Assembly (NCBI RefSeq): GCF_034058155.1
Contig: NZ_CP139148.1
Location: 372,001-436,000, forward strand
Reading direction: 5' to 3'
From: Flavobacterium sp. KACC 22761
Lineage (GTDB): Bacteria > Bacteroidota > Bacteroidia > Flavobacteriales > Flavobacteriaceae
DNA: 64,000 bases
Position 1 is the first letter of the stretch, and each line of letters starts with the position of its first letter. The notes beneath the pieces were generated by a model, which was given only the letters and a program-made list of their open reading frames with translations, searched no databases and had not been told where the DNA came from. Positions 12,759 through 62,945 of this stretch are shown one piece after another. A program made the position numbers and the translations under genes.

Positions 12759-14621
12759 GTGAATTACTTATCTGTAGAAAATATATCAAAGTCATTTGGT
12801 GAAAGAGTCCTTTTTGACAACATTTCTTTTGGAATCAACAAAGATCAAAAAATTGCTTTTATAGCAAAAAATGGTTCGGGAAAAACCACTATCATGAGTA
12901 TCATTAATGGTTTGGACGAACCAGATACGGGTCAAGTTGTTTTAAGAAAAGGAATCAGAATGGCATTTCTTTCTCAAGACAACAATCTGCAAGATGAATT
13001 GACGATCGAAGAGAGCATTTTCGCTTCAGATAATGAAACGCTAAAAGTTATTGAAGCATACGAAAAAGCATTAGAAAATCCCTCTGACGAAGAAGCTTAC
13101 CAAAAAGCTTTCGACGCTATGGATCAGCACAATGCATGGGATTTCGAAACACAATACAAACAGATTCTCTTCAAACTAAAACTAGAAGATTTCAAACTTA
13201 AAGTAAAAAATCTTTCGGGAGGACAGAAAAAACGTCTTTCTCTGGCTATCATATTAATCAATCGCCCCGATTTATTGATTTTGGATGAGCCAACCAACCA
13301 TTTAGATCTTGAAATGATCGAATGGCTTGAAAGTTATTTTGCCAAAGAAAATATTACGTTGTTTATGGTAACACACGACCGTTTCTTTTTAGAGCGTGTC
13401 TGCAACGAAATTATCGAATTAGACAACGGAAAATTATACCAATACAAAGGAAATTACTCTTATTATTTAGAGAAAAAAGAAGAAAGAATAACTTCTGAAA
13501 ATTCGAGTATTGACAAAGCTAAAAACTTATTTGTAAAAGAATTAGAATGGATGCGTCGCCAGCCAAAAGCGAGAACGACCAAATCTAAATCACGTCAGGA
13601 TGATTTTTATGTAATTAAAGAAAAAGCGCAAAGTCGACGTAAAGAAAACAAAGTGGAGCTTGAAATTAATATGGAAAGAATGGGAAGCAAAATTATTGAG
13701 CTTCATAAACTTTCTAAAAAATTCAAAGATCGCGTTATTCTGGACAACTTCAGTTTTGATTTTCAACGTGGAGAACGTATTGGGATTATCGGTAAAAACG
13801 GAACTGGAAAATCGACTTTCTTAAATCTTTTGACAGGAACAATTCCGCCAGATAGCGGAAGAGTTGTAAAAGGAGACACAATTAAAATTGGATATTATAC
13901 ACAATCCGGAATTAACCCAAAGCCGGGTCAGCGCGTTATTGATATTATTAAGGAATATGGAGAATATATTCCGCTTGCAAAAGGAAAGATTATTTCGGCT
14001 TCACAATTGTTGGAGCGTTTTCTTTTTGATGCCAAAAAACAATACGATTATGTTGAAAAATTGAGTGGTGGAGAATTAAAACGTTTGTATTTGTGTACCG
14101 TTTTGATTCAGAATCCAAACTTTTTGATTCTCGATGAGCCAACGAATGATTTGGATATCGTGACTTTGAATGTTTTGGAAAGTTTCCTTTTAGATTATCC
14201 TGGATGTCTATTGGTAGTTTCGCACGACCGTTATTTCATGGACAAAATTGTCGATCATTTATTTGTTTTTAGAGGACAAGGCGAAATTGAGAATTTCCCA
14301 GGAAACTATTCTGATTTCCGCGCTTATGAAGACAGCGCCGATGTTGCTCAAAAAGAAGAAAACAAAGCCGAAAAAAAAGATTGGAAACAAAATAATCCGA
14401 CAGGAAATTTAAGCTTCAACGAACAAAAAGAATATCAGAAAATAGAACGCGAGATTAAAGATCTTGAAGCTGAAAAAACTAAAATCGAACAATTATTCTC
14501 TGACGGAAAAGTTGCCGATGCTGATATCGAGAAAAAAGCAAACGAACTTCAAAATATCATAAATAAAATTGAGGCAAAAGAAGAACGTTGGTTTGAGCTT
14601 TCTGCTAAAATTGAAGGATAG
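12759..14621 (+). CDS. ABC-F family ATPase (Uup-like)
   Basis: The 620-residue protein has two ABC cassettes and no membrane domain. The first cassette has Walker A AKNGSGKTT at 36-44 and signature LSGGQKKRL near 155. The second has Walker A GKNGTGKST at about 344 and signature LSGGELKRL near 435. A basic linker between them (about 250-310) and a C-terminal coiled coil (about 555-620) fit the Uup subgroup. ABC-F proteins act on the ribosome or on DNA intermediates rather than in transport. The start is GTG, supported by the -7 box just upstream. It is likely monocistronic. Confidence 0.93.
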   Translation: MNYLSVENISKSFGERVLFDNISFGINKDQKIAFIAKNGSGKTTIMSIINGLDEPDTGQVVLRKGIRMAFLSQDNNLQDELTIEESIFASDNETLKVIEAYEKALENPSDEEAYQKAFDAMDQHNAWDFETQYKQILFKLKLEDFKLKVKNLSGGQKKRLSLAIILINRPDLLILDEPTNHLDLEMIEWLESYFAKENITLFMVTHDRFFLERVCNEIIELDNGKLYQYKGNYSYYLEKKEERITSENSSIDKAKNLFVKELEWMRRQPKARTTKSKSRQDDFYVIKEKAQSRRKENKVELEINMERMGSKIIELHKLSKKFKDRVILDNFSFDFQRGERIGIIGKNGTGKSTFLNLLTGTIPPDSGRVVKGDTIKIGYYTQSGINPKPGQRVIDIIKEYGEYIPLAKGKIISASQLLERFLFDAKKQYDYVEKLSGGELKRLYLCTVLIQNPNFLILDEPTNDLDIVTLNVLESFLLDYPGCLLVVSHDRYFMDKIVDHLFVFRGQGEIENFPGNYSDFRAYEDSADVAQKEENKAEKKDWKQNNPTGNLSFNEQKEYQKIEREIKDLEAEKTKIEQLFSDGKVADADIEKKANELQNIINKIEAKEERWFELSAKIEG

Positions 14622-14627
14622 ATCATA

Positions 14628-15136
14628 AGTTTTCAGTCTCAGTCGCAGTTTTCAGTTTTTTACATTTTATTTAAGACTTTTCTTTCTTTTTTATTATTCT
14701 TGTAGAAAAACAAAAAATGGATTTCAAAGAATTATTAGCTTATAAAAAGTCATTTGAGCTTGCAATGGAAATTTTCGAAATATCAAAAAAAATCCCTAAA
14801 GAAGAAAGATATTCTCTAACCGATCAAATTCGTCGATCATAAAGGAGCGTATCTGCAAATATTGCAGAATCATACCGAAAAAGAAGGTATACAAATCACT
14901 TTATTAGCAAATTAACAGATAGTGATGCTGAAAACTCTGAAACAAATACATGGCTCGAATTTTCGCTAAAATGCGAATATATTAGTAAGGAAACATTTGA
15001 AAAATTAAATGTAAAAAGTATTGAAATTGGAAGATTAATAAACCACATGATCAACAATCCACATAAATTTGGTTGTATTTAGAAAATTTTTTTTTAGCCA
15101 ACATAAGACTGAAAACTGCGACTGCGACTGAAAACT
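14628..15136. repeat. Inverted family-A arms bracketing the IVP pseudogene
   Basis: Arms at 14628-14658 and 15106-15136 are inverted copies of a 31-base word built on the unit CAGTCG and flanked by TTTTCAG; they match at 29 of 31 positions. They enclose the whole four-helix-bundle gene at 14717-15082. Related arms without a gene between them occur at 19435-19557, 62572-62630 and 62878-62945. Confidence 0.85.
14717..15082 (+). pseudogene. Four-helix-bundle (23S rRNA IVP family) gene with in-frame stop
   Basis: Reading frame 14717-15082 encodes a 121-residue four-helix-bundle protein of the 23S rRNA intervening-sequence/IVP family. It begins MDFKELLAYKKSFELAMEI and has IRRS, SVSANIAESYRKRRY and a long C-terminal helix. 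Codon 42 at 14840-14842 is TAA, where the family normally has a serine between IRRS and RSVSANIAE. One base change (TCA to TAA) would explain it. Everything after the stop is still in frame and well conserved, so the break is recent or a sequencing error. The gene is free-standing and not inside an rRNA gene. Confidence 0.8.
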
Positions 15137-15186: not shown

Positions 15187-15663
15187 ATGAAAAAATTATT
15201 AGCCACATTATTTACATTAACACTTTTTATTTCTTGTACAAGCTCTGATAAAAACATTGACACAACTCCTCCAAAGGATTATTCTGCAGAAAATGATAAA
15301 GAAATCACCGATTATCTAACCAAAAATAATTTGACTGCAACAAAAAGCAGCACAGGTTTATACTATATCATCAACGAACCTGGTACTGGTGCGCAACCAA
15401 CTGCAGCTTCTAAAGTTACTGTGGCTTACAAAGGATATTTTACAAATGGAAATGTCTTTGATCAAAGTAATGCTAGCGGCATTACATTTTCACTTTCTGA
15501 AGTAATTAAAGGCTGGACTGAAGGAATTACTTATTTTAAAGAAGGCGGAAGCGGCATTCTACTTATTCCTTCGAATTTAGCGTACGGAAGCTATGCGCGT
15601 CCTGGAATACCAGCTGGATCAGTACTCCTTTTTGATGTAAAATTAATTGCAGTAAGTAAATAA
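15187..15663 (+). CDS. FKBP-type peptidyl-prolyl isomerase lipoprotein
   Basis: The 158-residue protein starts with a lipoprotein signal (LFTLTLFISC, lipobox Cys at about 17). It then has one FKBP domain from about residue 65: SKVTVAYKGYFTNGNVFDQS, VIKGWTEGITYFKEGG, IPSNLAYG and LLFDVKLIAV. It should catalyse proline isomerisation in the periplasm during folding of exported proteins. Single-domain FKBP lipoproteins are common in Flavobacteriaceae, often linked with gliding or secretion, but nothing here shows that link. It is 31 bases upstream of the methyltransferase gene. Confidence 0.92.
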   Translation: MKKLLATLFTLTLFISCTSSDKNIDTTPPKDYSAENDKEITDYLTKNNLTATKSSTGLYYIINEPGTGAQPTAASKVTVAYKGYFTNGNVFDQSNASGITFSLSEVIKGWTEGITYFKEGGSGILLIPSNLAYGSYARPGIPAGSVLLFDVKLIAVSK

Positions 15664-19434: not shown

Positions 19435-19557
19435 CAGTCTCAGTTTTCAGTTTTCATACTGCAAACTAAACACGAAAACTGAATACTTTAAAGTACAGTA
19501 ATTAGTAGCAAACATCGGTTTTCATACTGCAAACTGCCACTGAAAACTGATTACTAA
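19435..19557. repeat. Family-A repeat block with 18-bp direct repeat
   Basis: This stretch after the adenosyltransferase gene repeats CAGTTTTCAG words and an inverted CTGAAAACTG. It also holds an exact 18-base direct repeat (19450-19467 and 19518-19535). It contains no gene. Confidence 0.75.
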
Positions 19558-23391: not shown

Positions 23392-23438
23392 ATATCTATG
23401 TCTCGTCCTGAAAAAAGTTGACTATAATTAACTTAATT

Positions 23439-23813
23439 ATGTCACTAACAAGAGAAGTATTTAAAAGAATTGTGCCTGATTGCACTTACAGTGAGGCATT
23501 CAAAAAACAGGTTGTAAAAGAATTTGAACTGGGATTATTTTGCAAGGCAGATCTTCGCCGTCGTTACCAAATCAGAAGTCATAGCTGTATCGACAGTTGG
23601 TTAAGAAAATATGGTAAATTTACATATCTGGAAAAACTAACACTGGGACGACCTATGAAAGATCCTCAATCTCAACGCATCAAAGAACTCGAAGCTCAAT
23701 TAGCTAAGAAAGAGCAAGAATTATTGGTCTTTAAAAAGTTTATTGAAATAGCCGAACGCGAGCTAAAAATCGAGATTGTAAAAAAGTCTGGTTCCAAGCA
23801 GTCCAAGAAATAA
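23439..23813 (+). CDS. IS3 transposase ORF A (HTH/leucine-zipper protein)
   Basis: The 124-residue ORF A has an N-terminal HTH region (SEAFKKQVVKEFELGLFCKA, SCIDSWLRKYGK) that binds the element's ends. A C-terminal coiled coil (LEAQLAKKEQELLVFKKFIE) serves for dimerisation. I chose ATG 23439 over an in-frame TTG at 23418 that lies inside the terminal repeat. The heptamer A-AAA-AAG at 23780-23786 near its end shifts some ribosomes to ORF B. On its own it would act as a regulator of transposition. Confidence 0.88.
   Translation: MSLTREVFKRIVPDCTYSEAFKKQVVKEFELGLFCKADLRRRYQIRSHSCIDSWLRKYGKFTYLEKLTLGRPMKDPQSQRIKELEAQLAKKEQELLVFKKFIEIAERELKIEIVKKSGSKQSKK
23780..23786 (+). promoter_or_regulatory. 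Programmed -1 frameshift site of the IS element
   Basis: The sequence is A-AAA-AAG with the zero-frame codons AAA and AAG of ORF A. After a -1 slip the frame continues without a stop from GTC at 23786 (VWFQAVQEINRIYRVS) straight into ORF B. The joined product runs 23439-23786 plus 23786-24706, about 422 residues. Confidence 0.88.
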
Positions 23814-24706
23814 ATCGTATATACAGGGTTAGTCCTTGTGAAATATGTCGATTGTTTGGATACAGTAAACAAGCTTATTACAAACGAAAATCACATCTAT
23901 TAAAGTCAATTCCCGACAAAGTACATCTCAAATCTTTGGTAATGTCGGTTCGTCAAAAGCTGCCAAAAACCGGTGGCAGAAAACTGCATTATATGCTGAA
24001 AGATGATTTAAAAAGACATCAAATAAAGATTGGCAGAGATAAATTGTTTGATTTTTTACGTGATGAATATTTATTAGTCCCTAAAGCTAGAAGATATTAC
24101 AAGACAACAAATTCAAGACATTGGATGCGTAAATATCCAAATTTAATAAAAGAAATCAAGCTCAATGAGCCTGAGCAGGTTTGGGTTGCTGATATTACTT
24201 ATCTAAGAACTAAAGAACAAACATATTACCTGCATTTGATAACAGATGCATACTCGAAGAAAATTGTAGGTTATAATTTATCGGATAATTTAATGGCTTC
24301 TTCTACATTAGAAGCTTTAAAGATGGCTGTCGGTAATAGGAAATACAGCAGAAATCTCATACATCATTCAGATAGAGGTCTTCAATATTGCAGCAAAGAG
24401 TACACGGAATATTTATCTCAAAGCAAGATTCTGATAAGTATGACACAAAACTATGATCCATATGAAAATGCAGTTGCAGAAAGAGTAAATGGTATTTTAA
24501 AAGAAGAATTTGGATTATCTGAAATCTTTGAAGATTTTGAAAATCTGAAAAAGCAAGCTCTAGAATCTATTTTATTTTATAATCAAATAAGAGTGCATTT
24601 ATCAATAAATATGCTGACTCCAAATCAAGCACATTTACAAAATCAAATCAAACTCAAAAGATGGAAAAAAACAAATCGGAACAAAAATAATTCTGTTCCG
24701 ATTTAA
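23786..24706 (+). CDS. IS3 transposase ORF B (DDE integrase), read by frameshift
   Basis: ORF B carries the rve/DDE catalytic core. The first Asp is in VWVADITYL, the second in HHSDRGLQYCSKEY, and the Glu in NAVAERVNGILKEEFGL; all three residues are present. A HTH_21-type region (PKTGGRKLHYMLKDD) precedes it. A TTG at 23852 could start it alone, but the frame is open back to the slip site and the upstream residues match IS3 transframe proteins, so the active enzyme is the ORF AB fusion. It excises and inserts the element. Confidence 0.9.
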   Translation, partial: VWFQAVQEINRIYRVSPCEICRLFGYSKQAYYKRKSHLLKSIPDKVHLKSLVMSVRQKLPKTGGRKLHYMLKDDLKRHQIKIGRDKLFDFLRDEYLLVPKARRYYKTTNSRHWMRKYPNLIKEIKLNEPEQVWVADITYLRTKEQTYYLHLITDAYSKKIVGYNLSDNLMASSTLEALKMAVGNRKYSRNLIHHSDRGLQYCSKEYTEYLSQSKILISMTQNYDPYENAVAERVNGILKEEFGLSEIFEDFENLKKQALESILFYNQIRVHLSINMLTPNQAHLQNQIKLKRWKKTNRNKNNSVPI

Positions 24707-24802
24707 TTAATTTTATATTACTAATCGAGTCAACCTTTTTCAGGACAACTCACTAAAAATCTCATGTTATTGTTTTTTAACATTAAATGACAGAAATCAT
24801 TC

Positions 24803-29905: not shown

Positions 29906-30822
29906 AAAACCTTCTTTATTTAGTAGCAGCCATTTTGCTTTTTTCTTGTAATTCAAAAGAGAAAAAAATGACCCAAAACGAAAACATAAATAATGAAGGA
30001 AAAGAATTATATACTCATCTATACGCTTCATGGGTAGGAATTTTTAATATTGAAGAACGAGATACCACAAAACTCTATATTGAAGAACCAACTTTAATTA
30101 ATATTTTAATCAAAAAAATTACAGAATCAGAAGTTACTGGTCAAAGAATTATAGCGGGAAAAAGCAGGCCTTTAAAAGGATCTGTGAGAAGAACTGGAAA
30201 TACTTTTTACTTTACACTAAAAGAACCAGGAGATGATAAAAATGATGGTACGTATAATTTTGAAATAAAAAATGACTCTATTTTAGTTGGAACTTGGACA
30301 GCTAATGATCCTAAAAAAGAAGTTACTAAAAGAAGTTATACTCTTAGTAAAAAAGTGTTCAAATACGACCCAAACGTAATGTTGCCTGAAGAAATCTATG
30401 TCGATTTTCAAAATCCAAAAGAACCACAAACAAAAATTGCTGAAACTGTAAAAGAGGAAAAAGCAGAAAAAGACACGCTATCTGATAATGATGAAGACGA
30501 AATGGAAAATGATGGAAAATTGTACAGAACTGCCTCAGATATTGTATATACCATAAATTCTTCAACAACAAAACTAAAAGAAAGCCAACTTAAAAATTTA
30601 AAGAAAATTGAATTGGAAATTCTACGAAATACCATTTTTGCGAGACACGGATTTGCATTCAAATCGAAAACCATTCGTCAGTTTTTTGATTATGTAGATT
30701 GGTACATCCCTCTTTTCAACAATGTTGACGATAAATTAACCGAAACTGAAAGACAAAACATCACAATATTAAAACGTTTTGAAAAATACGCCGAAGATAA
30801 TTACGATACTTTTGGGAGATAG
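29902..30822 (+). CDS. YARHG-domain lipoprotein
   Basis: The 306-residue protein has a lipoprotein signal (AAILLFSC) and a beta-rich region at about 30-150. An acidic linker follows (EKAEKDTLSDNDEDE, about 185-205). The C-terminal YARHG domain is at about 225-300: LEILRNTIFARHGFAFKSK, then a Tyr/Trp-rich turn and ERQNITILKRFE. YARHG domains occur in secreted or cell-surface proteins with peptidase-like or binding roles not yet settled. It overlaps the DUF2306 gene by four bases. Confidence 0.85.
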   Translation: MKNLLYLVAAILLFSCNSKEKKMTQNENINNEGKELYTHLYASWVGIFNIEERDTTKLYIEEPTLINILIKKITESEVTGQRIIAGKSRPLKGSVRRTGNTFYFTLKEPGDDKNDGTYNFEIKNDSILVGTWTANDPKKEVTKRSYTLSKKVFKYDPNVMLPEEIYVDFQNPKEPQTKIAETVKEEKAEKDTLSDNDEDEMENDGKLYRTASDIVYTINSSTTKLKESQLKNLKKIELEILRNTIFARHGFAFKSKTIRQFFDYVDWYIPLFNNVDDKLTETERQNITILKRFEKYAEDNYDTFGR

Positions 30823-30831
30823 TTTTTTTTT

Positions 30832-30980
30832 AAGTTTCTAAGATACTAAGACGCTAAGATTCTAAGATTTTGCACATTGTTTTATAAAAAAAACTGAGCT
30901 AGACACACTTTGGAGTTTTTAGCTCAGTTTTTTTAGATCTAACAACTTAGCATCTTAGAACCTTAGTATCTCAGAAGCTT
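30832..30980. repeat. Family-B inverted arms around a terminator
   Basis: Arms 30832-30866 and 30946-30980 are inverted copies, 29 of 35 positions matching, made of CTAAGA words. They enclose the bidirectional terminator at 30887-30934, in the gap between two convergent genes. Confidence 0.85.
30887..30934. terminator. Bidirectional intrinsic terminator
   Basis: A 15-bp stem (30887-30901 with 30920-30934) around AAACTGAGCTA has A- and T-rich ends. It separates the YARHG gene (plus) from the RNA methyltransferase gene (minus). Confidence 0.85.
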
Positions 30981-30989
30981 CAAAAAAAT

Positions 30990-31652
30990 TTATCTCGGAT
31001 TATCTTGATAATAACGTGCTTCGATTCTTTTAATGTCTCGAATTGAATTTTTAGCCCAATCTAAACGTTTTACCAAAATTTCTTCTTCTGATAATTGCCA
31101 CTTAACGTCAGATCTTCTAAGTCTGTTGGTCAAATTCTGAATAACAATTGCGGCAGAAACGGAAATATTTAAACTTTCCGTAAAACCAACCATTGGTATT
31201 TTTAAGAAACCATCGGCATTGTCCATGATTTCTTGTGACAAACCTTCTTTCTCTGTTCCAAAAAATAAAGCGCTTGGTTTTGAAATATCGAAATCTTCCA
31301 ACATCGAATCTTTTTCATGTGGTGTTGTAGCAATGATTTGGTATCCTTTGCTTTTTAAATCAGAAAGGCATCCTGAAACCGAATCAAATCGGTTGATATC
31401 TACCCATTTTTGTGCACCAAGCGCAATTTCTTTGTCGATTCTTTTTCCGAAACGCTGTTCGATTACGTTTAATTCCTGAATCCCGAAAACTTCGCAGCTT
31501 CGCATTACCGCGCTTGTATTATGCATTTGGAAAACATCTTCTACAGCAACTGTAAAATGTTTGGTACGGTTTCCTAATACTTCCAAAAACCTTTCTTTAC
31601 GGTTGTCTGTTAATATATTTTCAAGGAATGCGAGGTAATCTAAATCAATCAT
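30990..31652 (-). CDS. TrmH/SpoU family RNA 2'-O-methyltransferase
   Basis: The 220-residue enzyme belongs to the SPOUT class. An N-terminal helical part contains RTKHFTVAVEDVFQMHNTSAVMRSCEVFG, the SpoU motif 1 with Asn and Arg. Motif 2 lies around ALFFGTEKEGLS, and motif 3 is IPMVGFTESLNISVSAAI. The layout fits tRNA Gm18 methyltransferase TrmH, although related rRNA enzymes are possible. I chose ATG 31652, not the TTG at 31673. That ATG overlaps the end of the upstream gene, which suggests coupling. Confidence 0.9.
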   Translation of the reverse strand: MIDLDYLAFLENILTDNRKERFLEVLGNRTKHFTVAVEDVFQMHNTSAVMRSCEVFGIQELNVIEQRFGKRIDKEIALGAQKWVDINRFDSVSGCLSDLKSKGYQIIATTPHEKDSMLEDFDISKPSALFFGTEKEGLSQEIMDNADGFLKIPMVGFTESLNISVSAAIVIQNLTNRLRRSDVKWQLSEEEILVKRLDWAKNSIRDIKRIEARYYQDNPR

Positions 31653-36080: not shown

Positions 36081-36101
36081 TATTTAACTCAGACTCTTTT
36101 T

Positions 36102-36240
36102 AGCCCAGATTGAAATGAAAAGCCTTTTGTGAAAAAAGCCATATTTTTTTGCAGGTACAGAGCGACCGGAGGAAGCTCCTGGAACTGCTTAAAAAATAGG
36201 CGTTTTTCACAAAAGCTTGAAATGGAAAGCTGGATTAGCT
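36102..36240 (+). ncRNA. Structured intergenic element, copy 1 (Flavo-1-like candidate)
   Basis: A hairpin of about 139 nt lies between the purB terminator and the antiporter start. It has a 5' flank AGCCCAGATTGAAATG and a long imperfect stem pairing AAGCCTTTTGTGAAAAA with TTTTTCACAAAAGCTT. The inner loop contains AGCGACCGGAGGAAGCTC, and the 3' flank is GAAATGGAAAGCTGGATT. Copy 2 at 51504-51648 keeps the flanks and loop but uses different paired bases. It ends 24 bases before the antiporter ATG, in sense. It may be an instance of the Rfam Flavo-1 motif; that name is from memory and untested. Confidence 0.65.
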
Positions 36241-36264: not shown

Positions 36265-38496
36265 ATGATTGCATTAAACGCCGAAACCACCCACCATTTA
36301 CAACCTTTAATCAGCGACTTGGGATTAATCCTGATGACTGCCGGAATTGCTGTGCTGATTTTCAAAAAAATGAAACAGCCTTTGGTTTTAGGGTATTTGA
36401 TTGCAGGTTTTTTGGCTGGAAATCATTTTGACTTTTTCCCATCAATTACAGATATGAAAAGTGTCGAAGTTTGGGCGGAAATTGGTGTTATCTTTTTGCT
36501 TTTTAGCTTAGGTCTCGAATTTAGTTTTAAAAAATTGATGAAAGTGGGAGGCACTTCTTCCATCACCGCCATAACTCAAATCATGTTTATGACTTTGATT
36601 GGTTATTTGGTTGGCCAATGGATGGGCTGGGGAAAAATGGACAGTATTTTTCTTGGCGCAACGCTTTCGATTTCTTCTACAACTATTATTATTCGGGCTT
36701 TTGATGAATTGGGCGTTAAAGGAAAAAAATTCGTTGGGATTGTATTTGGCGCGCTGATTGTGGAAGATATTGTTGCGATTTTAATGCTCGTTTTATTGTC
36801 TACAATTGCCGTTAGTGACCAGGTTTCTGGAACGGCCTTATTACAATCGGTTTTAAAATTAGTTTTCTTTTTGATTATTTGGTTTTTAGGAGGGATCTTC
36901 ATTATTCCGACGATATTGAAAAAGGCGAAACATTTATTGAGTGATGAAATGTTGCTTATTATTTCGCTTGCCTTATGTTTAATGATGGTAATGTTTGCCG
37001 CCAATGTTGGATTTTCGCCAGCATTAGGTGCTTTTATAATGGGTTCTATTATTGCCGAAACCACTCAGGCCGAAAAAATCGAGCATTTGATTCAGCCTGT
37101 AAAAGACTTATTTGGAGCGGTTTTCTTTGTATCGGTAGGAATGTTGATCAATCCCGTTACTTTGGTTGATTTTGCGCTTCCGGTTTTGATCATCACTTTG
37201 GTAACTGTTTTTGGAAAAGCATTCAGTTCTTCAATTGGAGCTTTGCTTTCTGGCCAGCCCTTAAAACAATCGGTGCAAACTGGAATGAGTTTGGCACAAA
37301 TTGGTGAATTCTCTTTTATTATTGCGACGCTCGGGATGTCGTTGAAAGTGACAAGTGACTTTTTGTACCCAATAATTGTGGCTGTTTCAGCTGTAACAAC
37401 ATTTACAACGCCATTTTTAATTAAATACTCTGAAACTTTTGCCTTGTTTTTAGAATCAAAAATGCCAAAGAGATGGGTTAAAAACATTAATCGCTACAGT
37501 ATGAACGCGCAAGCGATTAAATCGGTTAGCACTTGGCAAATTGTTTTGAGAGCTTCTGTGACACAAATTATTCTTCATACCATCATCATTACGGCAATCA
37601 TATTATTATCATCAAAATTTGTGGCTCCGTTAGTGGCTGATACACGATTTGGAAATACGCTTGCCGCCTTAATTACTTTGGTTATTATTGCTCCTTTTTT
37701 ATGGGCGCTTTCTTTGCGAAGAGTAAAAGTTGATGAAGTCGAAATTTTATGGGAAGAGCGAAAATACCGTGGCGCACTTTTAATGCTGATTTTAATCAGA
37801 ATGAGCCTTGGTCTGTTTTTCGTTGGATTTTTATTGAATATTTTCTTCTCGCCTTTGGTTGCTTTTGTCGCGTTGATAATTGCTATTTGCGCCTACCAGA
37901 TTTTCCCAAAAAAATTAAACGAGCAATATCATAAAATTGAAAATCACTTTCTGAAAAATCTTAATGATCGTGAGAACAAAAAAATCGACAGACGTTATGC
38001 TAATTTAATGCCATGGGATGGTCACATGTCGTTTTTTGATATTGGAAAAGAATCAAACTTGGCCGGAAAAACACTTGAAGAATTAAAAATTCGAGAGCAA
38101 CTCGGAATTAATATTGCTGAAATAAAACGAGGCGATATTACCATTCCAATCCCAACGAAAAATGAGCGTTTATTTCCTGGTGACGAAATTTGTGTAATTG
38201 GCACTGATGCTCAAGTTACAGAATTTGCCAAATATTTAAATCAAAACGAAATTGAGCCTCCAACAGAAGTTCAAGAATCTGAAATTGTACTACGTCAGTT
38301 AGAGGTTTCTCAGGAAGAATTTATTCAAAAGAGTATTGGTCAGTTTAGAGGAAAAACCGGCGGTTTAGTCGTTGGTATCGAACGAAACGGAAACCGAATC
38401 CTGAACCCAGAATCACCTATTATTTTACAGAAAAATGATATTATCTGGGTTGTTGGCGACAAGAAAAAAATGAATGAGTTGATGAAAAGAAGCTAA
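36265..38496 (+). CDS. CPA2-family cation:proton antiporter with RCK C-terminal domains
   Basis: The 743-residue protein has an N-terminal antiporter domain of about twelve helices (to about 390), with GVIFLLFSLGLEFSFKKL, ATLSISSTTIIIRAF and ALGAFIMGSIIAETTQ. More hydrophobic helices follow at about 440-560. The C-terminus has two TrkA_C-like domains: ESNLAGKTLEELKIREQLG with PGDEICVIGTDAQ, then LVVGIERNGNRILNPESP with DIIWVVGDKKKMNE. It resembles KefB/YbaL exchangers that move K+ or Na+ for protons. I chose ATG 36265, since upstream codons overlap the structured element. Confidence 0.92.
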   Translation: MIALNAETTHHLQPLISDLGLILMTAGIAVLIFKKMKQPLVLGYLIAGFLAGNHFDFFPSITDMKSVEVWAEIGVIFLLFSLGLEFSFKKLMKVGGTSSITAITQIMFMTLIGYLVGQWMGWGKMDSIFLGATLSISSTTIIIRAFDELGVKGKKFVGIVFGALIVEDIVAILMLVLLSTIAVSDQVSGTALLQSVLKLVFFLIIWFLGGIFIIPTILKKAKHLLSDEMLLIISLALCLMMVMFAANVGFSPALGAFIMGSIIAETTQAEKIEHLIQPVKDLFGAVFFVSVGMLINPVTLVDFALPVLIITLVTVFGKAFSSSIGALLSGQPLKQSVQTGMSLAQIGEFSFIIATLGMSLKVTSDFLYPIIVAVSAVTTFTTPFLIKYSETFALFLESKMPKRWVKNINRYSMNAQAIKSVSTWQIVLRASVTQIILHTIIITAIILLSSKFVAPLVADTRFGNTLAALITLVIIAPFLWALSLRRVKVDEVEILWEERKYRGALLMLILIRMSLGLFFVGFLLNIFFSPLVAFVALIIAICAYQIFPKKLNEQYHKIENHFLKNLNDRENKKIDRRYANLMPWDGHMSFFDIGKESNLAGKTLEELKIREQLGINIAEIKRGDITIPIPTKNERLFPGDEICVIGTDAQVTEFAKYLNQNEIEPPTEVQESEIVLRQLEVSQEEFIQKSIGQFRGKTGGLVVGIERNGNRILNPESPIILQKNDIIWVVGDKKKMNELMKRS

Positions 38497-38633
38497 GATT
38501 CTGAGACACTGAGATTCTAAGTTTTTTTAATATAAAAAGCGCTAAGATTTCAATTCATGAAATCTTAGCGCTTTTTTATTTGACAGAAGCTCAAAAAGTG
38601 CTGAGAATAAAACTTAGAATCTCAGCATCTTAG
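38493..38633. repeat. Family-B inverted arms around a terminator
   Basis: The left arm 38493-38521 and right arm 38613-38633 are inverted; the left has one extra 8-base unit (GAGACACT). The left arm contains the stop codon of the antiporter gene. They enclose the terminator at 38534-38576, in a convergent gap. Confidence 0.85.
38534..38576. terminator. Bidirectional intrinsic terminator
   Basis: A perfect 19-bp stem (38534-38552 with 38558-38576) around GCGCTAAGATTTCA has the loop ATTCA. It serves the antiporter (plus) and the peroxiredoxin (minus). Confidence 0.92.
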
Positions 38634-38649
38634 CAACTAAGTATCTTAC

Positions 38650-40312: not shown

Positions 40313-40351
40313 ATCATAAGATCGAGACAAAAATAGTTATTTCTCTTTAGT

Positions 40352-40574
40352 GAAAAGTAATTAGTAAAAAGTAATTAGCTCTTTTTTGCAAATCATAACC
40401 ACTCGTTTTCTTTTGTTAAACTTATAACACTTTGACAAGAATAATTTGCTAGTCACTTTTCACTAATTACCATTCACTAATTACTTTTTACTAATTACTT
40501 TTTACTAATTACTTTTTACTAATTACTTTTTACTAATTACTTTTTACTAATTACTTTTTACTAATCACTATCCA
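40352..40574. repeat. 14-bp tandem array with an inverted arm upstream
   Basis: Six exact copies of CTAATTACTTTTTA fill 40477-40560, with a degenerate copy on each side (40463-40476 and 40561-40574). At 40352-40382 the inverse word TAAAAAGTAATTAG occurs twice. The pair can fold into a long hairpin in the divergent gap between the AEC transporter and the Rrf2 regulator. There are no spacers, so it is not CRISPR. Confidence 0.9.
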
Positions 40575-41778: not shown

Positions 41779-42006
41779 TTAGCCACAAATTACACTAATT
41801 TTCACTAATTATTTTTTTAATGAATGCTCCATGTCATCCTGAGCGAAGTCGAAGGACGCGCAATTAGCTCGACAAAGATTGCCGATTTTGATTGTGGAGC
41901 TTCTATCGTGTCCTTCGACTTCGCTCAGGATGACAAAAATGCGGCAACAAATTAGTGGAAATTAGTGTAATTGCTTCGCCTGTTCGCTATCGCTCGGGTC
42001 GTGGCA
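41779..42006. repeat. Nested palindromes: family-C hairpin inside family-E-like arms
   Basis: Outer arms 41785-41810 and 41949-41973 are inverted (ATTACACTAATTTTCACTAAT and its partner) and carry the ends AGCCAC and GTGGC (about 41781 and 42001-42005). Inside lies the family-C hairpin at 41832-41935. The gap holds no gene. Confidence 0.85.
41832..41935. repeat. Family-C palindromic element, copy 1
   Basis: Perfect 26-bp inverted arms (41832-41857, 41910-41935) contain TGAGCGAAGTCGAAGGAC. The core has CGACAAAG at 41870-41877, shared with copies 2 (43195-43256) and 3 (53573-53661). Confidence 0.9.
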
Positions 42007-42065: not shown

Positions 42066-43163
42066 TTGTCAAGTTTAAAGAAACAATCGAGTAGCTTAAC
42101 TGAAAAAGCTGGAATTTCATCCCCTGAAATCACCAGTGCTTCTGCTATAAATGAAATTAAAAACAAACGCAGACAACAACCTTCAGCTTCTGAATTAATA
42201 TCTGGAATTCTATCTGGAAATCGCACAGCTCTCAGCAGAGCAATTACCCTTATCGAAAGCACCAATCCTGAACATTTAGAAAAAGCAAACGAAATCATAA
42301 ATGGATGTTTGGCTCATGCCAATAAATCAATCCGAATTGGGATTACTGGCGTTCCTGGTGTTGGAAAAAGTACTTTTATCGAAGCTTTTGGAAACTTTCT
42401 TACTAGTATTGGCAAAAAGGTGGCAGTTTTGGCAGTTGATCCAAGCAGTTCCATTTCACATGGAAGTATTTTGGGCGATAAAACCCGAATGGAAGAATTG
42501 GTTAAAAATGAAAGTGCTTTTATCAGACCGAGCGCTTCTGGAGACACGCTAGGTGGTGTTGCGCGAAAAACCCGTGAGTCAATAATTTTATGTGAAGCAG
42601 CTGGTTTTGACACCATCATTATCGAGACTGTTGGTGTTGGACAAAGCGAAACTGCTGTTCACAGTATGGTTGATTTTTTTCTTTTATTAAAAATTTCTGG
42701 CGCGGGCGATGAACTTCAAGGCATTAAACGAGGTATTATGGAAATGGCAGATGCCATCGTAATTAATAAAGCAGACGGAGATAATATCAAAAAAGCCAAT
42801 CAGGCGAAATTGGAATTCAATCGTGCTTTGCATTTATTTCAGCCCAAAAAATCAAATTGGCAACCAACAGTTACCACTTGCAGTGCCATTACAAAAGATG
42901 GAATTTCAGAAGTCTGGAACACGATTTCTGATTATTTCGAAATGACAAAAAAAACCGGATTCTTTCAAGAAAAACGACATGATCAAAATCAGTTTTGGAT
43001 GATGGAAACGATCAATGAACAATTAAAATCAAATTTCTATAATCAACCAGAAATTATTTCGCTTTTAGAACAAAATAAAAAAGCAGTGCAAAATGATGAA
43101 ATTTCACCTTTTGCTGCTGCTTCTCTTTTATTAAAATTTTATTTTAAAAAAGACACTAAGTAG
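42066..43163 (+). CDS. meaB: Methylmalonyl-CoA mutase-associated GTPase MeaB
   Basis: MeaB is the G-protein chaperone that protects and reloads B12-dependent methylmalonyl-CoA mutase. The 365-residue protein has the P-loop GVPGVGKS at 95-102, VLAVDPSSSISHGSILGDKTRM near 121-141, and SASGDTLGGVARKTRE near 156. The base-specificity motif is NKADGD. The start is a TTG; the N-terminal helical part before the P-loop has the length expected for the family. The mutase is not in this window. Its stop codon lies inside a family-B arm. Confidence 0.95.
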   Translation: MSSLKKQSSSLTEKAGISSPEITSASAINEIKNKRRQQPSASELISGILSGNRTALSRAITLIESTNPEHLEKANEIINGCLAHANKSIRIGITGVPGVGKSTFIEAFGNFLTSIGKKVAVLAVDPSSSISHGSILGDKTRMEELVKNESAFIRPSASGDTLGGVARKTRESIILCEAAGFDTIIIETVGVGQSETAVHSMVDFFLLLKISGAGDELQGIKRGIMEMADAIVINKADGDNIKKANQAKLEFNRALHLFQPKKSNWQPTVTTCSAITKDGISEVWNTISDYFEMTKKTGFFQEKRHDQNQFWMMETINEQLKSNFYNQPEIISLLEQNKKAVQNDEISPFAAASLLLKFYFKKDTK

Positions 43164-43316
43164 CTAAGATGCTAAGCTTCTAAGTTTTTCAACATTGTCA
43201 GTTCGATCGAAGTCGAGAACCGACAAAGCATTTCGACTTCGCTCAATGTGACAAACCAAATAACTTATTAAATTAAAAACCTAGAGCCTTAGCAACTTAG
43301 AATCTTAGCGCCTTAA
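43155..43316. repeat. Family-B arms enclosing family-C copy 2
   Basis: Arms 43155-43184 and 43287-43316 carry inverted CTAAGATGCTAAG words. They enclose a family-C hairpin (43195-43256) with the CGACAAAG core at 43221. The arms contain the stop codons of both convergent genes, meaB and the sulfatase. Confidence 0.85.
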
Positions 43317-51503: not shown

Positions 51504-51648
51504 CGAAGCATATTCCTGCTATTCATTACAATACTTTTCAATAAATTGCTTTTTTCCAAAGCCATAACAAGAGCTTCCGTTGGTCGCTTTGTTCTGTCAG
51601 GAAAAAATGCAATTTCTTTTCAAAGTATTTTCATTACTATCAGGGCTA
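51504..51648 (-). ncRNA. Structured intergenic element, copy 2 (Flavo-1-like candidate)
   Basis: On the minus strand the element reads AGCCCTGATAGTAATGAAAA at the 5' flank. Its stem pairs AATACTTT and AAATTGC with their partners, the inner loop is AAAGCGACCAACGGAAGCTC, and the 3' flank is GTAATGAATAGCAGGAAT. It matches copy 1 (36102-36240) in loop and flanks but not in stem sequence. It is about 257 bases upstream of the PhoX-like start, in sense. The rest of the gap (51248-51503 and 51649-51706) shows nothing recognisable. Confidence 0.6.
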
Positions 51649-51706
51649 AGCATTGGTTTTCAAAAGAAAAATTTTGTCTATAAATTTTGGAATTTGTACT
51701 TAGATA

Positions 51707-53572: not shown

Positions 53573-53661
53573 TGTCATTTCGACGAAGGAAAAATCTTTG
53601 CAAGAAACTCGACAAAGATTGGGGAGCTACTCGTGAAGATTTCTCCTTCGTCGAAATGACA
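53573..53661. repeat. Family-C palindromic element, copy 3
   Basis: Arms 53573-53598 and 53636-53661 are inverted copies matching at 25 of 26 positions (TGTCATTTCGACGAAGGA start). The core CGACAAAG is at 53610-53617. It sits between the unknown gene and the CPBP gene; no outer arms enclose it. Confidence 0.9.
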
Positions 53662-56034: not shown

Positions 56035-56067
56035 AACTTTGTCAAAGTTTCAAACTTTGACAAAGTT
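56035..56067 (+). terminator. Palindromic terminator (AACTTTGTCAAAG type)
   Basis: Two 16-base arms (56035-56050, 56052-56067) form a perfect palindrome. A second copy with a longer loop is at 57939-57971. Confidence 0.75.
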
Positions 56068-56099
56068 AAACCCTAACATTAATTCAAAACTTATAATCA

Positions 56100-56420
56100 A
56101 TGAAGAGTCTAAAGCTTATTTCATCTGTCCTTCTTATGCTTTTTTGTTTCATAGCAATTGCACAGGAAAAAACAATTTCAAAAGATACAATTCAGCGTAA
56201 TAATACAGCAAATACTCAAGTTGTAATTTGCGGGCCATCGCGATCTAAAGTACTTGAACCTTTATACATTTTAGACGGAAGAGTTTCAAATTCAAAACAA
56301 TTATCAAAAATCAACCCGAATGACATCGAAACCATCAAAGTATTAAAAGGAGAAGAAGCCAAATCTATTTATGGAGATAAAGGTGTAAATGGCGTTATTG
56401 TTATTACACTTAAAAAATAA
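56100..56420 (+). CDS. Small secreted stand-alone TonB-plug-domain protein
   Basis: The 106-residue protein has a Sec signal (LMLFCFIAIAQ) and then almost only a plug core: EPLYILDGRVSNSKQLSKI, DIETIKVLKGEEAKSIYGDKG and VNGVIVITLKK. It has no barrel, so it cannot be a receptor. It is a paralogue of the last 70 residues of the neighbouring membrane protein (shared EPLYI-DG, I-TI-L, YG-KG, GV-IT). It may compete with or signal to a receptor or the anti-sigma protein in the periplasm. Confidence 0.75.
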   Translation: MKSLKLISSVLLMLFCFIAIAQEKTISKDTIQRNNTANTQVVICGPSRSKVLEPLYILDGRVSNSKQLSKINPNDIETIKVLKGEEAKSIYGDKGVNGVIVITLKK

Positions 56421-56467
56421 TTAAAAGATAAAACTATCCCATGACTTCGTTTTAATAAACGTTTTAC

Positions 56468-56475
56468 TACATTTG
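56468..56475 (+). promoter_or_regulatory. -7 promoter box
   Basis: TACATTTG matches TAnnTTTG 31 bases before the ATG at 56507. Confidence 0.5.
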
Positions 56476-56506
56476 CGTTTCAATTTTTTCAAATTAATTA
56501 CGCGAC

Positions 56507-57094
56507 ATGAATCCTATTTTAAGCCAAAATTTATTTTTAGTTAAAGAACATATCGGAATGTTTAAAGCTTCAAACAATTACGATATCTATAATCCTGAAA
56601 GCAACCAAATAATTATGAACTGCCGTGAAAAAAACTTAAGTTTTTTCACTAAAATGCTTCGTTTTACAGATTTTAAAAGAGCAACTCCTTTTAATATTGA
56701 AATCTCAACTGCCGCTGGCGAAAAGTTAATTACCGTAAAAAGAGGAATCGCAATCTTCAGATCGACAGTTGAAGTTTTGGATGAAAAAGATCGTTTGGTT
56801 GGAACATTCAAGCAAAAATTCTTTTCTATTGGAGGGAGATTTGAAATTTTGGACAAAAACGAAAGACCAGTTGCAACACTTCAAGGAAAATGGACAGGCT
56901 GGGATTTCAAATTCTCACACGAAAACAAACAATTGGCACAAGTAAGCAAAAAATGGGCAGGAATTGGAAAAGAATTTTTTACGACTGCCGACAATTACAT
57001 GCTTCAAATTGAAGATACAATTCCTACTGAAAGTACGTTAAGACAATTAATTTTAGGAGCCGTGATGTGCATTGATATGGTTTTAAAAGAATAA
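56507..57094 (+). CDS. LURP-one/phospholipid-scramblase-like protein
   Basis: The 195-residue protein has no signal or internal helix before the C-terminal hydrophobic part. It shows repeats of strand blocks typical of the tubby-like LURP-one/scramblase fold: NNYDIYNPESNQIIMNCREK, ITVKRGIAIFRSTVEVLDEK, FEILDKNERPVATLQGKWTGWDFKF and LAQVSKKWAGIGKEFFTTADNY, with RQLILGAVMCIDMVL as a closing helix. Bacterial members have unknown roles in membrane or stress physiology. It has its own promoter. Confidence 0.82.
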   Translation: MNPILSQNLFLVKEHIGMFKASNNYDIYNPESNQIIMNCREKNLSFFTKMLRFTDFKRATPFNIEISTAAGEKLITVKRGIAIFRSTVEVLDEKDRLVGTFKQKFFSIGGRFEILDKNERPVATLQGKWTGWDFKFSHENKQLAQVSKKWAGIGKEFFTTADNYMLQIEDTIPTESTLRQLILGAVMCIDMVLKE

Positions 57095-57157
57095 CAAAAA
57101 CTTGTTAAACTTAGATTAAGAAAACATCTTAAAGCATCATTTTATTTTGCAAAAGCT

Positions 57158-57165
57158 TATTTTTG
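57158..57165 (+). promoter_or_regulatory. -7 promoter box
   Basis: TATTTTTG matches TAnnTTTG 43 bases before the ATG at 57209. Confidence 0.5.
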
Positions 57166-57208
57166 TAAGACTTATAATGATGCTTTTTGCATTTCTAAAA
57201 ATACAATC

Positions 57209-57925
57209 ATGACCGACTTAAAAAATAAAACTGCCTTTATTACAGGTGCAGGAAAAGGAATAGGAAAAGCCGTTGCAATTGCTTTAGCAAAAGAAGGCGT
57301 AAACCTGATTTTAGTTTCGAGAACTCAAAAAGATGTAGAACAATTAGCTGATGAAGCTTCAAATTTAGGCGTAAAAGCTTTAGCAGTAACAGCTGATGTT
57401 TCAGACATCAATTCTATCAATGCGGCAGTTGAAAAAGCTTTAAGCGAATTCAAACACATTGACATTTTGATCAACAGCGCTGGAATTGCTTCTTTTGGAA
57501 AATTCCTCGAATTAGAGCCAGAAGCTTGGGAAAGAATCATTCAGGTGAATTTAATGGGAACGTACTACACAACTCGCGCCATTATCCCGAATATGATTGA
57601 AAGACAAACCGGTGATATTATCAATATTTCATCAACTGCAGGATTAAACGGAAATGCTCTGACAAGTGCTTATAGTGCTTCTAAATTTGCGGTTTTGGGC
57701 TTGACCGATTCTTTGATGCAAGAAATGAGAAAACACAACATTCGTGTTACAGCTCTAACGCCAAGTACGGTTGCAACAGATATGGCTAAAGACTTAAACT
57801 TAACCGACGGAAATCCAGAGAAAGTAATGCAGTCTGAAGATATGGCTGAATTGATCATTTCGCAATTAAAATTGAACCGAAGAGTTTTTGTAAAAAACAG
57901 CAGTATTTGGTCTACTAATCCTTAA
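57209..57925 (+). CDS. SDR oxidoreductase (3-ketoacyl-ACP reductase-like)
   Basis: The 238-residue classical SDR has TGAGKGIG at 11-18, NSAGIASFG near 89, the catalytic Ser in NISSTAGL near 138, and the Tyr-xxx-Lys of YSASKFAV near 151-155. It most resembles FabG-type and 3-hydroxyacid reductases. The C-terminus is short, which fits the classical class. The substrate is not clear and no fatty-acid genes are adjacent. Confidence 0.92.
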
Positions 57926-57938
57926 AAGCAATCTTGTA

Positions 57939-57971
57939 AACTTTGTCAAAGATTGAAACTTTGACAAAGTT
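57939..57971 (+). terminator. Palindromic terminator, second AACTTTGTCAAAG copy
   Basis: A 13-bp stem (57939-57951 with 57959-57971) lies after the SDR gene. It shares its stem sequence with 56035-56067. Confidence 0.75.
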
Positions 57972-60199: not shown

Positions 60200-60631
60200 C
60201 AAACAATATTTGTAAAAGAAAATCAATAATCGACTTCGTTTCAACAATTTGCATTTATTATGATTTTATTAAAAATAAAATCTACTAAATGAAAGTAAAA
60301 ATTTTGAAAAACAATATTTTTTCCGAACTTTACGTTATACAATTCAATAAGAATTAAATGACAAAAATATCGATTAAGTGCAAATTTCATCGATTAAATA
60401 CATTTTTTTGCAATTTAAATTGAAAAAATCTTACATTTACTAGAGCTAAATTCTCTTGTAGAATTTATTCCGATTTTAAAATTATCGAACGTGTTAATTA
60501 ATTTAATAATAAATCGGACATAACAATTTTGATTTTCAATCGTTATGTTGTTGTTTTGTGTAACAAAATGAAATGGGAAAGCCGAAAACCAAAGAGAGTA
60601 GGCAAAAATAAAATTACAAATACCACACTTT
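60200..60631. other. AT-rich divergent intergenic region
   Basis: This gap between mtaB and the secreted protein holds no ORF of note. The only structure seen is a short inverted repeat ACATAAC / GTTATGT (60518-60524 and 60542-60548), 100 bases upstream of the next gene, which could be an operator. No complete promoter was seen. Confidence 0.4.
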
Positions 60632-62563: not shown

Positions 62564-62571
62564 ATTTTTGT

Positions 62572-62630
62572 AGTTTTCAGTCGCAGTCGCAGTTTTCAGT
62601 TTTCCCTGTGACTGAAAACTGTGACTGTAG
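62572..62630. repeat. Family-A inverted arms without cargo
   Basis: The left arm 62572-62603 (TTTTCAGTCGCAGTCGCAG type) and the right arm 62611-62630 (ACTGAAAACTGTGACTG) are inverted and close together, with no gene between. Confidence 0.8.
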
Positions 62631-62635
62631 ACTTC

Positions 62636-62854: not shown

Positions 62855-62877
62855 ATCATTTTATTTTTATAATTATT

Positions 62878-62945
62878 AGTTTTCAGTCACAGTCGCAGTT
62901 TTCAGTATTATCTCAAAGTGAAAACTGCGACTGAAAACCGTGACT
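62878..62945. repeat. Family-A inverted arms without cargo
   Basis: The left arm 62878-62906 and right arm 62918-62945 are inverted copies of the CAGTTTTCAG word, close to the arms at 62572-62630. They lie between the DUF2007 and helicase genes. Confidence 0.8.

Follow-up and report, generated by a model that had tools for sequence, protein, structure and literature searches.

Results

An IVP gene between inverted arrays of short words

The 64,000-nt stretch of DNA analysed here, which we call the window (Flavobacterium sp. KACC 22761, contig NZ_CP139148.1, positions 372,001-436,000; this genome is G000 below), contains a four-helix-bundle gene of the IVP family lying between two inverted arrays of short words, in the interval that separates a gene for an ABC-F type ATPase from one for an FKBP-type protein (Table 1). 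Gene and arms together, hereafter the cassette, extend from 6 nt after the ABC-F stop codon to 50 nt before the FKBP-type gene. The arms are 32 nt long each, 94% complementary and 445 nt apart, and their inverted-repeat score is 27.0, whereas 60 dinucleotide shuffles of these flanks never exceeded 14.5, so that the pair reported in the preliminary description (31 nt, 29 of 31 identical) is real. Folded as RNA, they form a stem that closes over the whole gene (z = -6.4; none of 100 shuffles equalled it), as do the complementary ends of 23S rRNA intervening sequences (IVS). The reading frame is likewise of the IVP/S23 type found in IVS, the orthologue L049 scoring 110.9 bits against PF05635 (23S_rRNA_IVP). 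The window itself contains no match to rRNA, and this copy sits between two protein genes, not in a ribosomal stem-loop.

The enclosed gene had been called an IVP pseudogene; the label is correct because of its one in-frame stop. Of the 13 IVP copies at this site, 11 are free of in-frame stops, L061 being the only other copy that has one. Within the arms lies a promoter-like TATTCTTG, resembled, as judged by eye, by a sequence in several orthologous cassettes; TAnnTTTG is a promoter type of this phylum.

Table 1. Positions of the cassette, its neighbours and the gene-less hairpins within the window
Feature	Position	Strand	Basis
ABC-F type ATPase gene (upstream neighbour)	12759..14621	+	left arm starts 6 nt past its stop
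Left arm, words CAGT(C)NC / AGTTTTC (word A), G-rich strand	14628..14659	+	inverted-repeat search
Promoter-like TATTCTTG, within arms	14695..14702	+	by eye in full-site sequences; position checked
IVP / four-helix-bundle (TIGR02436) gene, single in-frame stop	14717..15082	+	profile match over cut-off
In-frame TAA of the IVP gene	14840..14842	+	translation
Right arm, same words inverted	15105..15136	-	inverted-repeat search
FKBP-type peptidyl-prolyl isomerase-like protein gene (downstream neighbour)	15187..15663	+	profile scan
Gene-less degenerate word-A hairpin	19436..19552		sequence comparison
Gene-less hairpin, CTAAGNNN units (arm word of IVP L001)	30816..30996		word comparison
Gene-less hairpin, CTAAGNNN units	38487..38647		site comparison
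Gene-less hairpin, AGTAATT (arm word of IVP L002, same genome)	40347..40564		word comparison
Gene-less hairpin, CTAAGNNN units	43150..43314		site comparison
Gene-less word-A hairpin	62571..62633		inverted-repeat search
Gene-less word-A hairpin	62877..62945		inverted-repeat search

Gene-less hairpins and the turnover of sites

Two arm pairs of the same words with no gene inside had been claimed near the end of the window, and both were located; a third hairpin of word A, degenerate and absent from that description, lies at a site that carries other words in some relatives. Further gene-less hairpins use the arm words of other IVPs of the genome (Table 1). The site of the second CTAAGNNN hairpin carries CAAAGNNN in G049, G006 and G057, and that of the third carries it in G053, G049, G006 and G057. 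In five close relatives, gene-less sites vary in presence or in word. The sampled word hairpins are intergenic and their loops mostly short; in two of the window (30816-30996 and 38487-38647) the loop contains a second, terminator-like inverted repeat, as seen by eye. No word hairpin of the window matches Rfam; the RNAs that are recognised there are two Flavo-1 and one DUF805b (36098-36240, 51508-51651 and 60572-60604).

For the cassette's own site, the 80 best-matching relatives of the FKBP gene, out of 216, were compared; the ABC-F gene lies upstream in 35 of the 80. Arms and IVP are present as in the window at 11 of these 35 sites (L042, L044, L045, L047, L049, L050, L053, L054, L061, L068 and L081). 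Some relatives have a short gap without arms (e.g. L056, L073, L095), others have no IVP and a hairpin of another, CAGAGATTCACAAAG-like word (L041, L043, L048, L069, L075, L093), and L046 retains an A-type right arm with no IVP. Related species thus have the site in full, in empty and in differently filled form; the pattern that had been named as fatal to the cassette idea, arms always at the same locus and empty pairs of unrelated sequence, is not what these genomes contain. Sites lacking the cassette exist, but the available species are too diverged in their intergenic DNA for a junction or a target-site duplication to be placed.

Other repeat-bounded units occur in the same genome. A GIY-YIG nuclease gene (PF01541, 57.5 bits) lies within perfect 47/47 inverted arms, TTGTCATTTCGACGAAGGAG..., at L171:7009-7572 (G000 2857009-2857572), and gene-less relatives of these arms lie in the window at 41832-41935 and 53573-53661; this is a second gene-in-hairpin arrangement. 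The window also contains an IS-like unit with 19-nt inverted ends and two ORFs, one with an rve integrase core (23405-24746), and two inverted copies of a 33-nt repeat, AACTTTGTCAAAGTT..., with about 1.9 kb between them (56035-57971) and three ORFs inside, one TonB-plug-like and one scramblase-like.

Word arms around IVP genes across Flavobacterium

The 5.04-Mb contig of G000 has nine IVP loci (from ten matches, two overlapping ones in different frames being one locus). All nine carry inverted arrays that exceed their shuffles and lie close to the stop and start codons of neighbouring genes, with words resembling CTAAGNNN, AGTAATT, AAAGTCG, AGTATTA, CAGTCGC/AGTTTTC, AATTATG, TGTTTAT, AATTAGA and AATTGTT. 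Among the matches listed, IVP genes are present in at least 60 of 61 Flavobacterium genomes. The genus survey covered 80 loci from 30 genomes (9 from G000 and 71 others), chosen as high-scoring among the matches listed and not at random; many are mutually orthologous and they form 30 site clusters, site-2 orthologues included (L010 is counted with L009, and an 84-nt fragment at one end of L018 is left out). At 65 of the 80 the inverted repeat between upstream and downstream flank exceeds 95% of mismatched-flank pairs (mean 19.0 vs 9.84), and 15 fall below this threshold. The units of the arms recur at a lag of 7-8 nt (match fraction 0.45-0.46 vs 0.32 in shuffles); like STRR-type heptanucleotide repeats, these degenerate units of about 7 nt stand in tandem and are dispersed between genes. 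An origin of the arms in chance or low complexity was rejected on the evidence of the mismatched flanks and the shuffles. Nor do the arms simply adopt the commonest word of a genome: the nine IVPs of G000 differ in word, and a given lineage has the same word in different genomes and at different sites.

The left arm is G-rich in 22 of 25 site clusters, with three ties, and C-rich in none. Both neighbours could be called at 77 loci, and at 72 of these the IVP gene is co-directional with the two of them, a raw proportion with no baseline computed. Intact IVP copies are under purifying selection, with median dN/dS of 0.06-0.18 at five sites, where dS is near saturation (medians 1.1-1.6); in-frame stops interrupt 7 of 92 copies. 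Locus L135 (G040 C17:27621 and 30468) holds two IVPs, 96% identical and about 2.8 kb apart, whose arms are both built of TTGTATAATGTATA-type words; a recent duplication is probable. Our searches of the open-access literature turned up no previous description of IVP genes flanked by word arms.

The word follows the IVP lineage, and gene and arms are exchanged together

IVPs at least 78% identical to L049 (class A) occupy four different sites and have word A at all of them. Of 17 further relatives (63-73% identity), 13, at several sites, have the word A', AGTGNTCAGT, four of the 13 with weak arm scores; those that deviate are L195, L196, L198 and L207. Between non-orthologous sites, the word is shared in 6 of 9 pairs at an IVP identity of at least 70%, compared with 0.00 of 1754 pairs below 50%, and arm similarity correlates with IVP identity (Mantel r = 0.145; maximum of 1000 permutations 0.148).

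Site 1 has the same two flanking genes in 16 genomes (both flanks homologous in 16 of 16), and its two arms are of the CTAAG or the CAAAG type together (r = 0.96, 16 loci). On the tree of the site-1 IVPs the arm type changes once, between two clades of eight taxa each (supports 0.96 and 0.99), as against six changes on the tree of the downstream gene, built from sequence starting 70 nt beyond the IVP match (about the random mean of 5.7), and four on the purB tree (random mean 5.6). The cassette has therefore been replaced without its immediate neighbour; gene and both arms are exchanged at this site as a unit. With residues numbered along the matched stretch, the proteins of the two arm types differ by F25Y, S50G, K76F and I78L, and those of classes A and A' by N53K and N106L as well as a gap at 108; with so few sequences, these are only candidate specificity residues.

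Words are more abundant in genomes with the cognate IVP

We counted motif matches to words A, B and A' in 61 genomes (a hairpin may give several matches) and subtracted those at IVP loci, taking from each genome its best copy, plus a second copy in six cases. The median for word A is 29 in the 7 genomes with a cognate IVP and 1 in the 54 without, and that for word B is 3 vs 0 (13 and 48 genomes). For A' it is 18 vs 1 (18 and 43 genomes), the class being set by protein identity and not by the arms, so that the 18 include G030 and G031, which have another arm word, G059, whose best copy has word A arms, G026, a fragment, and G048, through a second copy at 70%. Phylogenetic regression (PGLS) on the purB tree, with 57 genomes (G003, G016, G023 and G034 are not in the tree), links each word to its own IVP (A, p = 1.6e-6; A', p = 0.0012; B, p = 0.0032). 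IVP-A does not predict A', nor IVP-A' word A; among the other cross terms, word B is also predicted by IVP-A (p = 0.004), and words A and A', weakly, by IVP-B (p about 0.04).

The set of A' genomes had been fixed before counting. Nine of the 11 named genomes have at least six copies beyond the cassette, and G047 has 4 and G001 none. The expected scarcity of A' outside the named set failed: A' is abundant without a cognate IVP in G040 (101), G021 (88), G009 (29), G013 (24), G017 (20) and G012 (17), as well as in G048 (68 matches, 61 after subtraction), initially classed as A only and found to be A' by its second IVP copy. Word A is similarly abundant without a cognate IVP in G004 (29), G015 (30), G040 (23) and G052 (70), which fits a later loss of the IVP without proving it. 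Conversely, after subtraction, A' is scarce despite a cognate IVP in G001 (0), G030 (3) and G047 (4), and word B is at zero in G036, G043, G033 and G055. In G037 the A' count of 13 does not exceed its backward control (14). The balance of CTAAG and CAAAG arrays follows the type of the site-1 cassette as predicted overall (16 genomes; Mann-Whitney p = 9e-4, PGLS p = 0.0014), yet in G006 and G015, with CAAAG-type cassettes, CTAAG arrays outnumber CAAAG arrays. Within genomes, own hairpins matched own IVP arms better in G000 only (p = 0.04); in the small samples of G036 (10 hairpins, p = 0.62) and G057 (20 hairpins, p = 0.52), with four IVPs each, they did not.

IVP cassettes outside the genus

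Of two plasmid queries, the first gave 33 records with IVPs, most of them from cyanobacteria, and the second 23; a scan of viral contigs gave only two loci. From these we took 13 of the 33 and 10 of the 23 plasmid records plus the two viral contigs (25 loci; for L429, L430, L437 and L440 we placed the gene ends manually on either side of the match). They belong to Cyanobacteriota, Gemmatimonadota and Pseudomonadota, plus the two viral contigs of unknown host. Inverted word arms exceed the shuffle maximum at 23 of the 25, with words such as GCAGGGG, GGGAACA, GGGTGTA, GGTGACA and GGCTTTT; L425 ties with its shuffles, L426 has no arms and those of L420 emerge only with 350-nt flanks. The left arm is G-rich at 22 of the 23 loci that score at least 14 (L425 included, L420 and L426 not). 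The element is thus not limited to word A or to Flavobacterium. For two Nostoc plasmids, the scan covered 50 kb of each and found no array of the arm word away from the cassette.

One IVP, that of L440 on a plasmid of Azospirillum lipoferum, is nested in a 23S rRNA gene (LSU_rRNA_bacteria, 980 bits), between inverted arms of GACAGAG/GACGGAT-like words; at least one rRNA intervening sequence therefore shares the architecture. On cyanobacterial plasmids, three word-armed cassettes (L431, L432, L436) form part of CRISPR operons, where they are flanked either by cas6 and cas4 or by cas10 and a cmr3-like gene; IVPs in cas loci have been noted before (PMC3936711).

Discussion

The reading we favour, at a probability of about 0.58, is that an IVP gene and its two inverted word arms constitute one mobile cassette, that the gene-less hairpins are its miniature relatives, and that the IVP spreads or maintains the word hairpins. 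Lineage-specific words bracket most of the IVPs examined, and related genomes carrying the gene tend to have many more copies of its word, a pattern suggesting that gene and repeat together are a single system that spreads itself. In such a system, each IVP lineage would have its own word of about 7-8 nt, and the IVP, a putative ring-shaped binder, would most likely recognise the hairpin of that word as RNA or as single-stranded DNA. Each entry of the solved relatives 2rld and 2gsc contains five chains, and for 2gsc a ring made up of five four-helix bundles has been described (cited in PMC4990558 and PMC10053308). The G-rich 5' arm and the sense orientation are consistent with recognition on a transcript or a single strand. 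The IVP would then help enzymes of the host or of a third party to copy, renew or insert word hairpins at intergenic sites, the cassette itself would move by the same route, and those cassettes that ended up in a ribosomal hairpin would be what is known as 23S rRNA intervening sequences. Against this reading stand the exceptions in word abundance and the cross terms described above, the hairpins of G036 and G057, the Nostoc plasmids, the 15 loci below the arm threshold, the lack of a catalytic domain match in the IVP, and the broken state of the window's own IVP.

The preliminary description had suggested that the IVP gene rides in a non-autonomous mobile cassette. The cassette idea is supported in part, by the versions of the site in related species, by the exchange of gene and arms as a unit, by the same word at different sites and by the dispersed gene-less hairpins; 'non-autonomous' is doubtful because word abundance follows the presence of the cognate IVP, and the IVP may be an active partner rather than a passenger of the hairpins.

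The alternative that survives best, although we consider it unlikely, is that binder and sites co-evolve without any mobilisation, the IVP binding RNA as a regulator or chaperone and acting on word hairpins at the 3' ends of mRNAs, its own included, with slippage and recombination making the repeats and use by the IVP keeping them. Co-direction with the neighbours (the 72 of 77 loci given above, with no baseline computed), arms that fold as RNA and adjoin stop codons, and purifying selection on the IVP would all fit such a regulator, but the exchange of entire cassettes at a fixed site does not follow the adjacent gene, cassettes with the same word occur at different sites, and orthologous sites vary in hairpin presence and in word.

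Somewhat less probable again is that an unrelated enzyme moves word hairpins which happen to carry the IVP, the correlation with abundance then reflecting hairpins that bring the gene along. Words and IVPs diverge in step, which would not be required of a passenger, and G004, G053, G054, G029 and G012 are word-rich without a match to Y1_Tnp, the only transposase type scanned. The IVP does have no known catalytic domain, in keeping with a passenger, and hairpins can carry other genes, since the GIY-YIG gene sits in the arms of another repeat of the same genome.

It is improbable that the gene-less hairpins are merely IVP cassettes after loss of the gene, like solo LTRs. L046, with its A-type right arm and no IVP at the orthologous site, looks like such a remnant, but G000 has 29 word-A matches away from the IVP locus vs one class-A cassette, 400 kb of sampled G000 stretches contain no IVP remnant at E 1e-4 or better, and the loops of the sampled hairpins are mostly short.

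There is very little to be said, finally, for ordinary REPIN/RAYT elements moved by Y1 (HUH) transposases, an idea which the hallmarks shared with RAYTs (PMC2817692; see below) and the presence of Y1_Tnp in 41 of 61 genomes would favour and which is largely refuted at the genome level: the enclosed gene is an IVP and not Y1_Tnp, and in scans with the Y1_Tnp profile word-rich genomes such as G004 (29 A, 38 B and 153 CT), G053 (262 CT) and G054 (21 A, 37 B and 132 CT), and also G029, G012 and others, have no match, so that Y1/RAYT transposition was rejected as a requirement. In G000 there are eight Y1 transposase copies of near-equal score (133.9-134.4 bits) and four further Y1 matches.

A wider proposal may be put forward tentatively, although we would lean slightly against it: IVP proteins could underlie a cross-phylum class of selfish gene-repeat systems without a transposase of their own, each reading a lineage-specific 7-8-nt word and seeding or renewing its hairpins genome-wide, with the heptamer repeats of cyanobacteria, Xanthomonas, Beggiatoaceae and Bacteroidota and the 23S rRNA intervening sequences as products. 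This would give a role to a widespread protein family of no known function, place the intervening sequences within a larger class of mobile cassettes, and make the pairing of word and lineage a natural code that is directly testable.

Comparison with known systems

In REP/REPIN-RAYT systems, a pair of inverted repeats flanks the gene, gene and repeat co-evolve, and the presence of the gene predicts repeat abundance (PMC2817692; PMC3116915). IVP cassettes show the same three hallmarks, the last with exceptions. They differ in that the RAYT is a Y1 HUH transposase, whereas the IVP is an unrelated four-helix bundle without known catalysis (a profile scan of L049 matched only 23S_rRNA_IVP and bAvd, with no catalytic domain and no Y1/HUH transposase), and in that the repeat is an array of degenerate 7-8-nt words.

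With the 23S rRNA intervening sequences, the cassettes share the protein family and the placing of the gene within complementary, stem-forming ends (PMC4990558), and L440 is itself such a sequence inside LSU rRNA whose ends are inverted word arrays. The window element, in contrast, lies between two protein genes and has a promoter-like site of its own, and word arrays and dispersed gene-less hairpins are not among the features of intervening sequences given in PMC4990558. A more distant relative is Avd of the diversity-generating retroelements: L049 scores 40.6 bits against the bAvd model (cut-off 40), and the relation between IVP and Avd has been stated before (PMC10053308). Unlike those retroelements, the cassette has no reverse transcriptase among the four neighbouring genes scanned (ABC-F, FKBP, methyltransferase family, or no match).

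The closest parallel on the side of the repeats is with dispersed heptamers, namely TAACTGA in Beggiatoaceae, cyanobacteria and Bacteroidetes (PMC4679880), GGGAATC in Xanthomonas and GGGGA(C/T)T in Nostoc (PMC4692102). These too are 7-nt units, mostly intergenic and often near gene ends (PMC4692102; PMC4679880), with convergent pairs in Xanthomonas and few inverted pairs in Nostoc (PMC4692102). The published descriptions mention neither a gene enclosed in the arrays nor a cognate protein lineage (PMC4692102; PMC4679880). For TAACTGA, horizontal transmission without an evident mechanism was suggested, and S1, Csp and Csr proteins were named as candidate binders (PMC4679880). Xanthomonas campestris encodes an IVP, XCC0516. 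The IVP would offer a partner protein for these dispersed heptamers, whose origin was left open in the accounts of both groups (PMC4679880; PMC4692102).
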